A stretch of 64,000 bases of DNA, from the NCBI RefSeq assembly GCF_040958095.1, contig NC_091165.1, positions 28,931,378 to 28,995,377 of the forward strand, written 5' to 3'. Positions 2,640 to 53,290 of this stretch are shown here, in pieces. The position numbers and the translations under genes were made by a program. Numbering within the stretch: position 1 is the first letter of the stretch; each line of letters begins with the position of its first letter. This DNA is from Procambarus clarkii (lineage: Eukaryota > Arthropoda > Malacostraca > Decapoda > Cambaridae). The notes beneath the pieces are model-generated. The model was not told the DNA's origin. It searched no databases and saw only the letters and a list, made by a program, of their open reading frames with translations.

Positions 2640-3690
2640 GAAGATGGCCACAGACTGGAGTGAGCCAGTCGGCCTCCTGCGGAAACTGTGCTTCATCTCA
2701 GACTTCATGACCAGCACGGAGAGCTAAACTGTTGGAAGTGGCGACAGGAAACGTTTTTAAATCAGCATGTCAGGGGACCCACATGAATGAGAGGCAATGA
2801 TGAACCAGCGAGACTCGACCTAGTCTTCACTCTGAATGACTCCGACATAAGGGAAATCGGTTTCGAAGTTCCCGTGGGAATGATTGATCACAGTGTACTG
2901 ATGTTTGAGTATCTGGTCGAAGTAGGGTTAATGTACTCAAGGAAGGGACTGAAACCTAAAGGTTGGGATTCCGAATGGGAAACTATGAGATAAGAAAATT
3001 CCTATCAGATATAATTTGTGAAACAGAGCTCAGAGGAAAGACGGCCCAAGACATGATGGACTACATCACACAGACGTGTAAGGAAGCAGCAGAGAAGTTC
3101 GTCCCAGTCCAAAAGGAAAAAAAGGAAATGCACACGAGAAACCCATGGTTTAATCAGAGATGTAACCTAGCAAAGCAACTTAGTACAAGGGCATGGGGAA
3201 ACTATAGAAATAACAGGACACTTGGGAGCAGAGAAGATACCAGAGTGCCAGGAATGAAGACGGTTCAGGATGAGAAATGAGGCAGAAAGCCTCTTTCTCA
3301 TCTTCTTTCTCTAGCCTCTCAGAAAGCCTCACAATCGACTTGAGAATGGTCCAGGACGGACCGAAACGTCCACGTCCCTTCACATTCTAGTGTGTGGTCT
3401 GGTCATCATACTTTAACCACGTTATTGTGACTCATCGCCTGCAGGCAGAAAGCCAATATGAAAATGACATAGCAAGCAAGGCAAAGACTCAACCTAAATT
3501 ACTGCACAGCCACACCAGGAGAAAAACGACAGTGAAGGAACAGGTAATGAAACTGAGGACACGGGTTGACAAATTCACTACAAATGACAAGGAAGTGTGC
3601 GAGGAACTCAATAAGAAATTCCAGGAGGTTTTCACGCTAGAAGACGTTTCCCAACATCATCTTGACGTAAGGAAACATTAGGAGGGCGAG
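2640..3690 (+). mobile_element. LINE fragment: C-terminal endonuclease plus linker
   Basis: The translation contains RGNDEPARLDLVFT and PVGMIDHSVLMFEY, matching the end of the EEP (AP-like) endonuclease of CR1/Jockey-type non-LTR elements (the SDH motif here reads IDH). The linker follows (KKEMHTRNPWFNQRCNLAK) and, after an insertion at 3292-3442, continues as NDIASKAKTQPKLLHSHT. Frames are broken and no reverse transcriptase follows, so this is a dead 5' fragment. The clade is uncertain. Confidence 0.75.
3292..3442 (+). mobile_element. short Penelope-related terminal element in a LINE
   Basis: This insert interrupts the LINE linker and is bounded by the 12-bp direct repeat AGGCAGAAAGCC (3280-3291 and 3443-3454). 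It carries the hammerhead-like block CTTGAGAATGGTCC-AGGAC-GGACCGAAACGTC (3339-3370, hyphens mark stem and loop) and ends with ACCACGTTATTGTGACTCAT and CGCCTGC. The duplication shows that the roughly 150-bp unit moved as a discrete element. Confidence 0.8.
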
Positions 3691-3963
3691 CTACCTCCCA
3701 GCATCAATATTTCTGGACCGCCTGCTCACGAAAGTGCTTTTTGTAGTTTTTATTAATTTTGTTTTGCTAGTATATATACAAAAAAATGCTGTTTAGTTAC
3801 TTCATCAACTGAAGAATAGGTCTAGGAAGACCCATACTTCTGGGTCGTGTACGAGGTCATTCAGAATACTGGGTCTTGGTAAGTCCCATGGATGAATGGG
3901 TTTTTTGAGGGGTGGTTCCTCTGAATCTGTATTTCTTGGATTTTATAATCACTTGTTGTACTG

Positions 3964-4139
3964 ATGATTACAAAGCGGGGCCTCACGATTACAAAGGCGG
4001 GGCTTCACGATTACAAAGCGGGGCCTCACGATTACAAAGGCGGGGCCTCACGATTACAAAGCGGGGCCTCACGATTACAAAGGCGGGGCCTCACGATTAC
4101 AAAGGCGGGGCCTCACGATTACAAAGGCGGGGCTTCACG
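3964..4139. repeat. 21/22-bp minisatellite
   Basis: About eight units of CACGATTACAAAGGCGGGGC, alternating between forms with one or two G before CGGGGC. The frames reading HDYKGGASRLQ repeats are artefacts. Confidence 0.95.
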
Positions 4140-4638
4140 GTCCGGGATGCAGAGCTTGCTTGAGAGGTAGGTGAGTCTGGTGTTCATGGACATTCTCATA
4201 AGAGAAATGTGCAGCTCGAGGGGGGATTATATGGGTGTTCTTGAGCTGGTGTAATGATCATTCTGTTTAGGTAAAGCTTGACATGCGTTGTGGCTTGGTC
4301 TGAATCTGAAGAAATCAGTCAGGGGAGATTTTAGGCTATTGCTAATGTCTCAGAGACGTACTGGGTGGAGTAGAGCAGTCTTTTGGTATACTGTAGTCTA
4401 GAACGGTGCTGGAGTTCTTGGTGGCTATGGGTTCTCCCCTGATGTAAACCCCCACCTACCTTTTCTTTCGAGAATGGTAGACAACTAGCTGTGTTTATCT
4501 GGATATTTAGGTTTGGTGGTGACTCTCCATTTCCTTTCCCATTTCACACTTAGAGCTGTTCGCTTTTCCTGCTGTGCAGATGTTTGGTGCATTGGTGTTT
4601 GCACGTTTGCAAATGTGCAAACGTGCATTGTTTGCTAT
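4140..4638. other. unannotated
   Basis: No supported gene or recognised repeat, apart from a short TTTGCACGTTTGCAAATGTG imperfect palindrome near 4600. Confidence 0.4.
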
Positions 4639-4647
4639 ATAACAACT

Positions 4648-4802
4648 GTTTGACCAGACCACACACTAGAAGGAGAAGGGACGACGACGACGTTTCGGTC
4701 AGTCCGGTTGCCAGGACGGACCGAAACGTCGTCGTCCCTTCACCTTCTAGTGTGTGGTCTGGTCAACTTACTTTAGCCACGTTATTGTGACTCATCGCCT
4801 GC
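4648..4802 (+). mobile_element. fold-back Penelope-related terminal element
   Basis: An inverted arm (4650-4706, TTGACCAGACCACACACTAG through CGTTTCGGTC) is followed directly by the same block in plus orientation (4711-4802: GGACCGAAACGTCGTCGTCC, then the tail TTATTGTGACTCATCGCCTG). The whole palindrome is bounded by the 9-bp direct repeat ATAACAACT (4639-4647 and 4803-4811), so it was inserted as one unit. Confidence 0.8.
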
Positions 4803-4814
4803 ATAACAACTCTT

Positions 4815-5476
4815 TGTTTAGTGCATTGTTTGGTGCATTGTTTGGTGCATTGTTTGGTGCATTGTTTGGTGCATTGTTTGGTGCATTGTTTAGTGCATTG
4901 TTTGGACATTGTTTGATGCATTGTTTGGTGCATTGTTTGGTGCATTGTTTAGTGCATTGTTTGGACATTGTTTGGTGCATTGTTTGGTGCATTGTTTGGT
5001 GCATTGTTTGGTGCATTGTTTGGTGCATTGTTTGGTGCATTGTTTGGTGCATTGTTTGGTGCATTGTTTGGTGCATTGTTTGGTGCATTGTTTGGTGCAT
5101 TGTTTGGGGCATTGTTTGGTGCATTGTTTGGGGCATTGTTTGGTGCATTGTTTGGTGCATTGTTTGGTGCATTGTTTGGTGCATTGTTTGGTGCATTGTT
5201 TGGTGCATTGTTTGGGGCATTGTTTGGTGCATTGTTTGGGGCATTGTTTGGTGCATTGTTTGGTGCATTGTTTGGTGCATTGTTTGGTGCATTGTTTGGT
5301 GCATTGTTTGGTGCATTGTTTGGTGCATTGTTTGGGGCATTGTTTGGGGCATTGTTTGGTGCATTGTTTGGTGCATTGTTTGGTGCATTGTTTGGTGCAT
5401 TGTTTGGGGCATTGTTTGGTGCATTGTTTGGGGCATTGTTTGGTGCATTGTTTGGGGCATTGTTTAGTGCATTGAC
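4815..5476. repeat. 12-bp minisatellite, about 55 units
   Basis: The unit is GCATTGTTTGGT with GGGC and TAGT variants. It has no stop in five or more frames, giving long artefactual proteins (ALFG, VHCL, WCIV, NNAP, QTMH repeats). Confidence 0.97.
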
Positions 5477-51865: not shown

Positions 51866-51950
51866 CGCGCGCACACACACACACACACACACACACACAC
51901 ACACACACACACACACACACACACACACACACACACACACACACACACAC
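51866..51950. repeat. (CA)n microsatellite
   Basis: About 85 bp of CA ending exactly at the inverted repeat. Confidence 0.97.
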
Positions 51951-52362
51951 GGTCCGTCTAATTACCACAAGCTACCACAAACTACACAAACTTCAGAAAG
52001 CTTCCTGGCAATACGTTAGTAATGAATAAATATGATATATTAAGTTAGGCTGACCTAACCTAACCTAACCTATCCTAACCTATCCTAACCTAACCTAACC
52101 TAACCTAACTTAACCAAACCTAACCTAACCTAACCGAAGCTTGGATCGTCGACTTAATTTGGCGTCACCAGCTTTTTATTTTCGTCTAATTTCTTTATAA
52201 AAAGATACTTTTTCAGATTAAAATTATGTTTTTTCGTGTTGTACATTCAGCACCAACATTATAATGAGTAAATATATCATATTTATTCATTACTAACGTA
52301 TTGCCAGGAAGCTTTCTGAAGTTTGTGTAGTTTGTGGTAGCTTGTGGTAATTAGACGGACCG
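51950..52362. repeat. 413-bp inverted repeat enclosing a (CCTAA)n tract
   Basis: Exact 92-bp arms (51950-52041 and 52271-52362; GGTCCGTCTAATTACCACAA and its complement at the far end) flank a 229-bp spacer that starts with CCTAA repeats. It has no coding capacity. It could be a foldback transposon or an inverted duplication. Confidence 0.9.
52053..52135 (-). repeat. interstitial (CCTAA)n tract
   Basis: About 16 CCTAA units with a few TATCC and TTAACC variants, in the opposite orientation to the tract at 51259. Confidence 0.85.
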
Positions 52363-52615
52363 ATCCTCAAGAAATCATGTCAATTGTGTTGTGAGGCATG
52401 TCGAAACCTCCTTGTCATTTTCTATGTAAGTGCACGTCTCTTTTTTTTATGAAACAAGCCACGTTGGACCAGGGGGCATGATAACGTTGACCAATGGTAC
52501 TACTGAGCTCCAATAGTGTTGATCAAATGTTTCAACACTTCGTCAAGCCAGACAATTTAACCCACCGGCCGTTCACATGTGGCAATGTTAACTAACTTGT
52601 ATAGATTTTCGTCCA

Positions 52616-52888
52616 ATCTTGAGGTTATCTTGAGACGATTTCGGGGCTTTTTAGTGTCCCCGCGGCCCGGTCCTCGACCGGGCCGACCAAGCCCGGCCGA
52701 GGCCCGGCCAGGCCCGGCCGACCAGGCCTCCACCCCAGCTGACTAACACCCAGGTACCTATTTACTGCTAGGTAACAGGGCATAGGGTGAAAGAAACTCT
52801 GCCCATTGTTTCTCGCCGGCGTCTGGGATCGAACCCAGGACCATAGGATCACAAGTCCCGCGTGCTATCCACTCGGCCGACCGACTCC
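52616..52888 (-). mobile_element. SINE-A copy with expanded GGCC block
   Basis: A full copy with the GGTCGGCCGAGTGG head. The middle has an extra CGGCCGAGGCCCGGCCAGG-type expansion at about 52680-52726. Confidence 0.9.
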
Positions 52889-52986
52889 TATCCAAGGAGG
52901 ATAGCTTGAGACAAAAATAATGTCTCCTCGTGTAAATATCTTCTTCAACCTACAAGACAGTTGATTTTTCAACCAGCTTTATCTCT

Positions 52987-53099
52987 ATCGACTTGAGAAT
53001 GGTCCAGGACGGACCGAAACGTCGTCGTCCCTTCACCTTCTAGTGTGTGTGGTCTGGTCAACTTACTTTAGCCACGTTATTGTGACCCCTCGCCTGCAT
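52987..53099 (+). mobile_element. 113-bp Penelope-related terminal element with TSD
   Basis: The cleanest copy: ATCGACTTGAGAAT-GGTCC-AGGAC-GGACC-GAAACGTCGTCGTCC, TTCACCTTCTAGTGTGTG, TTTAGCCACGTTATTGTGAC and CGCCTGCAT, bounded by the 10-bp direct repeat CTTTATCTCT (52977-52986 and 53100-53109). Confidence 0.85.
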
Positions 53100-53290
53100 C
53101 TTTATCTCTTATAATGTTCTCTCAGACGAATACAGGTCTCGTCATACCTCACTGCTGTTGTAAAGTGCGAGTGAAGCTCACTGAAGATCTCTGACCTTTT
53201 CTTACCAAGGCAAGCAGCCTAATAGTCAAACCTATCAATTTCTCAAGAAAATGCGGCCAACCGGATTGTACCTGAGGGACAGTTAATACA

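Follow-up and report, generated by a model that had tools for sequence, protein, structure and literature searches.

What are the short, ribozyme-like repeats that recur along a 64,000-nucleotide (nt) stretch of the Procambarus clarkii genome (NC_091165.1, positions 28,931,378 to 28,995,377; hereafter, the window)? A first-pass annotation of this stretch likened at least six sites with a common box and hairpin to the hammerhead ribozymes of Penelope-like elements (PLEs) and took the 110-155-bp unit for a small mobile family in its own right. We followed the repeats through the whole genome (4.03 Gb in 2308 contigs; L-numbered loci below are sequences fetched from this genome) and assigned the copies to four families, F1 to F4. 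The short sequences of these families are probably the insertion ends of Penelope-like retrotransposons, left by run-off reverse transcription from two starts on uncleaved mRNA.

Arms, tails, and target repeats

F1 copies consist either of a single arm or of two inverted arms (fold-back copies), an arrangement that the earlier annotation had passed over together with the rule described below. On the 3' side, the arms end at one of two fixed points, ..GGTCTGGTCAACA (proximal) or, about 38 nt beyond and with a tail, ..TCGCCTGC (distal). On the 5' side, the edge adjoins the hammerhead-like module: at most positions, 9 to 11 of 14 single-arm copies agree up to about 6 bases above stem I (CACAATC), after which the agreement fades. 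With a 5' edge beside the ribozyme and two fixed 3' edges, an independent mobile family is a less likely account of the unit than a product of PLE insertion.

Exactly one arm was tailed in all 32 two-arm copies from the loci and the window. The loci had been drawn by queries with one tail or a tail-bearing arm; four copies lay outside the queried match, and each of these was also one-tailed. For this check, we fetched 20 further two-arm copies, including three duplicate pairs, of which 14 were picked for missing the exact tail word and 6 were not. Again, every copy (20/20) had exactly one tailed arm. Genome-wide, exact patterns recovered 8,311 two-arm F1 copies. The F1 tail lay beyond one arm in 4,727 and 4,800 matches, versus 102 matches with tails on both arms, or about 1%. 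F4, which is unrelated to F1 in sequence, gave the same picture, with 1,632 and 2,038 matches tailed on one arm (3,670 together; 12 and 2 in the control) versus 45 tailed on both (3 in the control), again about 1%; at least one of those 45 (C87) is an unrelated AT-rich stretch. If start sites were chosen independently at the two ends, one-tail copies would make up at most one half. The one-tail rule thus suggests that each insertion involves two initiations that are coupled to each other.

With duplicates removed, 24 of 37 two-arm F1 copies have target repeats of 10-15 bp where the outer ends should lie, and therefore both ends come from one insertion. The other 13 had no repeat of at least 10 bp at the expected place. 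Longer repeats elsewhere in L001 and in the window copy at 4650 were left uncounted, and L071 and L077 share the same repeat, probably as one duplicated copy. Among single-arm F1 copies (15 in all), a repeat of at least 7 bp flanked 8 of the 14 with a recognized box, one of them doubtful (L050).

The second arms also bear on the state of the template. We considered F1 second arms that start no more than 30 nt upstream of GTCGTCCC, using 100 listed matches out of 1139 forward and 1096 reverse. Among these, 98 cross the predicted ribozyme cut (74 of them into stem II), and 2 start within about 4 nt of it. Second arms run past the predicted cut site, and therefore the sampled templates show signs of having been uncleaved.

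A hammerhead-like module in a Penelope-like element

F3 was found via a GIY-YIG reading frame near the F1 copy in L050. A first look at the genome returned 92,695 F3 candidates, and every scored match (150 of 150) showed 100% identity over 157 amino acids, so that F3 appears to have undergone a very recent burst. It is a young and possibly active element. Several listed F3 matches lie in 839-amino-acid open frames (e.g., C24:37772100-37774917). One endonuclease match, at C23:43077132-43077602, lies inside a 1,876-amino-acid open frame, about twice the usual length and perhaps fused or captured.

Locus L069 is the junction of two tandem F3 copies. It contains TATAAAA at 247, TCAGTT with its A at 277, the hammerhead-like module at 294-344, and an ATG at 356, followed by an open reverse transcriptase (RT) frame that carries YVDDIF. 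The module is thus predicted to lie at +18 to +68 of the 5' untranslated RNA, with its predicted cut after C17 at L069 position 340. The RT frame matches RVT_1 (E 1.2e-6; 28.9 bits, cut-off 29.6) and a group II intron RT in PDB (E 2.4e-4), and the endonuclease matches GIY-YIG (E 3.4e-4; 21.3 bits, cut-off 22.6). F3 therefore has the RT and GIY-YIG open reading frame (ORF) of a PLE. Other PLE hallmarks were also present: tandem copies in F3 (L069), tails in F1 and F4, and target-site repeats in F1. The Penelope origin first proposed for the short units gains from the equivalent module directly upstream of this ORF.

Written as hammerheads (arrow, predicted cut), the cores read cgac-UUGAGAA-u-GGUCC/GGACC-GAA-ACGU-C↓gucg in F1, gucu-UUGAAAA-u-GUAA/UUAC-GAA-ACGCG..CGCGU-C↓agac in F3, and ccuu-CUGAAGA-u-GUAU/AUAC-GAA-AGUACU-U↓aagg in F4. 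We scanned 277 kb with a descriptor that required GAA, A15.1-U16.1, an NUH cut site, and stems I and II in register, and that permitted 0 or 1 extra base between A9 and stem II. It returned 61 matches, versus 1 in three order-2 Markov controls, which bears out the likeness to a hammerhead. In all 61, a single additional base separates A9 from stem II, a departure from the canonical type I form, where stem II directly follows A9. Two sites are counted double among the 61: one in L061, which was read in two ways, and the copy at 7897, which occurs in both the window and L001. Because loci L001-L068 had been fetched for their similarity to F1 or F2, and L069 on account of F3, the independent support lies in L050, with its F3 site, and in the F4 sites of L047, L064, and the window. 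Three families with different but complementary helices thus satisfy the GAA, A15.1-U16.1, NUH, and stem-register requirements, with positions 3-8 being C-G in F4 and U-A in F1 and F3.

The box had been noted as off consensus in most copies. This is the case in F1 and F3, but it is not merely decay: 92 of 127 F1 arms carry UUGAGAA, which makes it the majority form, and the young F3 has UUGAAAA. A consensus without CUGANGA in the youngest parents had been named as grounds for abandoning the hammerhead; F3 literally has such a box, but the argument presumes that only CUGANGA can work. Judged by its sequence, the F1/F3 core is a putative minimal type I hammerhead of the PLE kind, off consensus in having U3-A8 for C3-G8 and an extra base. 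We would call the box a compensated variant more than a ruin, because U3-A8 in place of C3-G8 is a documented natural covariation in other hammerheads, and the passage describing such pairs states that they had earlier been found active in vitro (PMC3088659). We expect any cleavage by this U3-A8 core to be weak or protein-assisted. In F2, the 30 of 36 genome matches that were fetched, none selected for pairing, had U-A at positions 3-8 in 16, U-G in 7, and A-U in 1 (box otherwise broken).

A proposed insertion mechanism and its rivals

In the parent PLE, a minimal module resembling a type I hammerhead would occupy the 5' untranslated RNA, past the transcription start and ahead of the ORF. Downstream of this ribozyme, the enzyme would have two neighboring points at which reverse transcription can begin, and from there it would extend complementary DNA (cDNA) to the 5' end of an uncleaved mRNA. 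The resulting units would measure about 110 bp. We favor such run-off because of the fixed 3' ends, the 5' edge beside the ribozyme, and the read-through of the cut site. F3 offers a comparison with a predicted transcription start. Of 53 two-arm F3 centers genome-wide, 50 were listed and scored, with a pattern that permitted 38 nt for both arms together. An arm extends to CAGTT-AATCAGTT, the predicted start, in 9 of these 50, and in none does it pass beyond. The simplest reading is that the short units are cDNA from an internal start to the mRNA 5' end, or ending slightly short of it.

Priming may then occur once on each target strand, with a different start site used for each cDNA, and short homology may join the two cDNAs head to head at their 3' ends. 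Both insertion ends would often bear a copy, of which the tailed one comes from the distal start and the tailless one from the proximal start, the whole lying between target repeats of 10-15 bp. Generalized, and as a tentative though quite possible proposal, PLE insertion would comprise two coupled reverse transcriptions, one per target strand, that are obliged to use different adjacent starts, perhaps through two enzyme subunits on one RNA. The template would be uncleaved mRNA with an intact U3-A8 hammerhead, and ribozyme cleavage would be uninvolved. With its two families, the P. clarkii genome offers about 13,000 natural two-ended products that bear on how PLEs insert. In about 99% of tail-bearing matches, one end is distal and the other proximal, a sharp and testable constraint on the enzyme complex, and uncleaved templates bear on the purpose of the PLE hammerhead.

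Several results weigh against this account. Both Pfam scores of F3 fall slightly below the curated cut-offs, and the placement of its module comes from one tandem copy with a predicted transcription start. No full-length F1 or F4 parent with RT and GIY-YIG ORF was found, no genome search having been aimed at the F1 parent, and what ties F1 to PLEs is its likeness to F2 and the decayed copy in the window. CUGANGA is absent from F1 (UUGAGAA) and F3 (UUGAAAA) and occurs only in F4 (CUGAAGA). In F2, 6 of the 30 copies lack a standard 3-8 pair, and none has C-G. The hammerhead covariance search that had been advised for the window gave no match to the Rfam hammerhead models (E up to 5), nor did three short stretches (E up to 10). 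The minimum-energy fold of the 49-nt F1 stretch 52986-53034 has stems I and II, with a z-score of 0.04; the folds of the 81-nt F1 stretch (52986-53066), F3, and F4 are not hammerheads, and z-scores range from -0.72 to 1.47. Finally, 41 of the 50 listed F3 centers end short of the predicted start, so that few copies support run-off in this family, and in 34 of the 50 both arms end no more than 11 nt upstream of the core, under the 38-nt ceiling of the pattern.

The main rival retains the PLE parent and changes the origin of the second arm. A cDNA from the distal start would fold on its own 3' end and prime the second arm, which would halt at a fixed barrier before the tail and join the other target end. 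Recurrent centers such as CTCAAGTCGATTGAGAATGG suit a cDNA 3' end that anneals by 2-3 bases, but two annealed cDNAs would yield identical centers, and the centers thus fit both models. Arms are slightly more alike within a copy (0.874) than between copies (0.856; 0/20000 permutations), a difference too weak to decide; we also tried arm identity as proof of a single template and rejected it, since it was above chance yet had too little power. Self-priming has been put forward for rotifer PLEs, on an antisense template, in the relevant passages of PMC3846280. Against snapping back, two families that share no sequence would both need a barrier at precisely the proximal point, and the single-arm copy L056, which ends at the proximal point with its own 12-bp target repeat, indicates that this point can be an insertion end alone. 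We consider this route unlikely, though less so than those that follow. It is improbable that a conserved protein-binding hairpin only happens to look like a hammerhead. The Rfam silence, the altered box, and the lack of an energetic signal speak for such a hairpin, as do the F2 copies, 5 of 30 of which lack U4, 5 lack A9, and 10 lack G5, these copies being old. Yet stems I and II and the 3-8 pair vary together between families while the layout stays fixed, and the hammerhead that an anole PLE carries at this place is active and protein-assisted, according to the passages on that element in PMC11167929.

A small non-autonomous, ribozyme-tagged family that propagates itself in the manner of a retrozyme or short interspersed element (SINE) would explain the thousands of copies, their sub-family markers, and their target repeats. 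We hold it to be quite improbable. Retrozymes are tandem ribozyme units of about 170-400 nt, but in the loci examined F1 units are single or inverted, never tandem, and F3 and F4, which are unrelated in sequence, yield the same type of unit. Moreover, copies start beside the ribozyme and therefore would lack whatever promoter lies upstream (in F3, the TATA box). Long inverted repeats between direct repeats also recall a fold-back or miniature inverted-repeat transposable element (MITE) with no relation to PLEs, an explanation to which we give almost no credence. Such transposons have identical inverted termini and repeats of fixed length, but here about 99% of tail-bearing matches have a tail at one outer end and none at the other, and the 24 counted repeats vary in length (10 to 15 bp). 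Single-arm copies also occur, and the F3 module belongs to an element with RT and GIY-YIG. The tail counts, the fetched copies, and the L069 layout largely refute this explanation.

Copies in the window and known systems

The window contains five F1 insertions, two single-arm and three two-arm. The single-arm copy at 52986-53098 (plus strand, with tail) reads cgac TTGAGAA t GGTCC..GGACC GAA ACGT C↓gtcg, with a descriptor match at 52993. It is flanked by CTTTATCTCT at 52977/53100, and also by a repeat at 52974/53097 with 12 of 13 positions matching. The F1 pieces at 3334-3443, 1875-2025, 4650-4803, and 7830-8013 are 88-96% identical to it (best E 2e-33). That at 3334-3443 is the second single-arm copy (plus strand, with tail, 91% identity), with an exact 12-bp direct repeat at 3280/3443. 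The two-arm copy at 4650-4803 (plus strand) has its tail on the right arm, inverted repeats of 40 nt and 23 nt, and no box or 5' half of stem II at its center; the direct repeat ATAACAACT at 4639/4803 has 9 exact bases, with 13 of 14 matching. In the copy at 7830-8013 (plus strand), the left arm lies on the minus strand with its core box at 7897 and no tail, the right arm is tailed, and the inverted repeat 7829-7895/7915-7981 spans 67 nt at 96% identity. The third two-arm copy, at about 1875-2027, reads on the minus strand (F1 match 1983-1875) and has a tail on the left arm and a 42-nt inverted repeat. The direct repeats first noted at 3280/3443, 4639/4803, and 52977/53100 hold up as target-site repeats.

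Three older F2 relatives are also present. The first, at 20439-20580, forms the 3' end of a decayed PLE (18640-20580, plus strand), in which we recognized by eye an RT-like stretch (18751-19026), a stretch like a PLE C terminus (19956-20060), and a SINE-like insertion. This 3' end is 65% identical to F1 over 100 nt (E 4e-5) and 76% identical to the intermediate copy L010, in line with the degraded version of the core originally seen there; a tblastn search of the window with the F3 protein found nothing at this PLE. A second F2-type end, at 21990-22116 (plus strand; 36 genome matches, itself counted), is 75% identical to the L010 unit. Its core at 22044, ATGATGA t GGTCC..GGACC GAAACGTG, has A.G at positions 3-8. 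The third copy, at 44005-44074 (plus strand; TTGATAA t GGTTC..), is 67% identical to the L010 unit (E 3e-4).

Of the sites first listed (1951, 3339, 4711, 7917, 22044, and 52990), the common core holds for F1 and F2 copies, but several boxes or hairpin halves are degraded. Those at 1951, 4711, and 7917 match F1 yet belong to the two-arm copies. The plus-strand arm at 4711 lacks TTGAGAAT, 7917 retains only GAGAAT, and 1951, on the minus strand, has a broken stem II pair rather than an intact hairpin. The list had left out the F2 copy at 44005, the palindromic pair at 31002/31159, and the following two features. An F4 two-arm copy at about 56920-57110 (plus strand) has the core cctt CTGAAGA t GTAT..ATAC GAA AATACT T↓aagg at 57035, with a tail on the left arm and none on the right. 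An F3-related tail fragment with a PLE ORF start lies at 698-808 on the minus strand (tblastn with the L069 ORF, 84% over 37 amino acids, E 4e-13).

Other features of the window and loci stand apart. Positions 31002-31160 form a near-perfect palindrome with two related cores (cac TTGAGAA t GAAC..GTTC GAA ACGTC) facing across a TA repeat; they are arranged tail-to-tail, whereas F1 copies are head-to-head, and the palindrome gives rise to the microRNA-family (mir-type) matches at 31021-31140, which score below gathering scores. A core-like site at 50332 (CTGAGGA a GGAC GAGA GTCC GAAAG) was dropped, as it is absent from the descriptor matches; it has no proper stem I or cut site and is either chance or a decayed copy. 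A dispersed repeat (CTTGAGATGATTTCGGGGCTTTAGTGTCCCCGCGGCC... GGGATCGAACCCGGGACCA...), by eye tRNA-derived and SINE-like, occurs at about 19505-19760 and 52620-52890, with one copy sitting within the decayed PLE. Long tandem arrays occupy 4820-5470 (12-base, GTGCATTGTTTG), directly adjoining an F1 two-arm copy, and 6830-7370 (10-base-like, TTCGTGGTGC). In L047, around 2406-3110, an open frame that is actin-like by eye lies less than 1 kb from an F1 copy.

How do these modules compare with known ones? The hammerhead of chrysanthemum chlorotic mottle viroid (CChMVd) has an extra base between A9 and stem II, as here; it differs in belonging to a viroid and in its canonical C3-G8. PLE hammerhead modules are already known, and an abstract by Cervera and de la Pena from 2014 reportedly describes minimal type I hammerheads in Penelope-like elements. 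The combination of U3-A8 with an extra base, present here in several families within a single genome, seems to be new, and it provides a natural set of U3-A8 cores on a young, possibly active element. According to passages that cite the 2014 work (PMC7229834, PMC6155905), those ribozymes likewise lie in the flanking pseudo-long terminal repeat (pLTR) and have a tiny or missing stem III and short stems; compared through the same passages, F1 and F3 differ in their U3-A8. Variants with U3-A8 show the same compensatory core-pair change as F1 and F3 but occur in other hammerheads, and the section describing them makes no mention of an extra base before stem II (PMC3088659).

The anole PLE PAc offers the closest match in layout, as described in the pertinent sections of PMC11167929. 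It has a hammerhead at the pLTR/ORF junction, about where the F3 module lies, along with internal RT starts and an optional 30-40-bp tail, as here. Two internal RT starts were reported, both strands were extended, and cleavage by the protein-assisted hammerhead was dispensable in vitro. Its cut site lies 26 bp past the start codon, and the predicted F1 cut falls after base 25 of ATGG... The core residues of PAc are C3 and G8, whereas F1 and F3 have U3-A8, and the F3 ATG lies 12 nt past the module. Rotifer Penelope elements, in the portions of PMC3846280 that treat them, resemble the fold-back copies in their head-to-head pLTRs, palindromic centers, and target repeats of 8-10 bp. There, a 31-bp tail is optionally present on one inverted pLTR, and the head-to-head palindromes are attributed to self-priming. 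A one-sided tail had therefore been noted earlier, and the passages of the PLE literature covered by our search gave no counts of a one-tail rule. The rotifer work describes individual copies, whereas the P. clarkii genome adds signs of uncleaved templates and a genome-wide count in which a near-absolute one-tail rule holds in two families.

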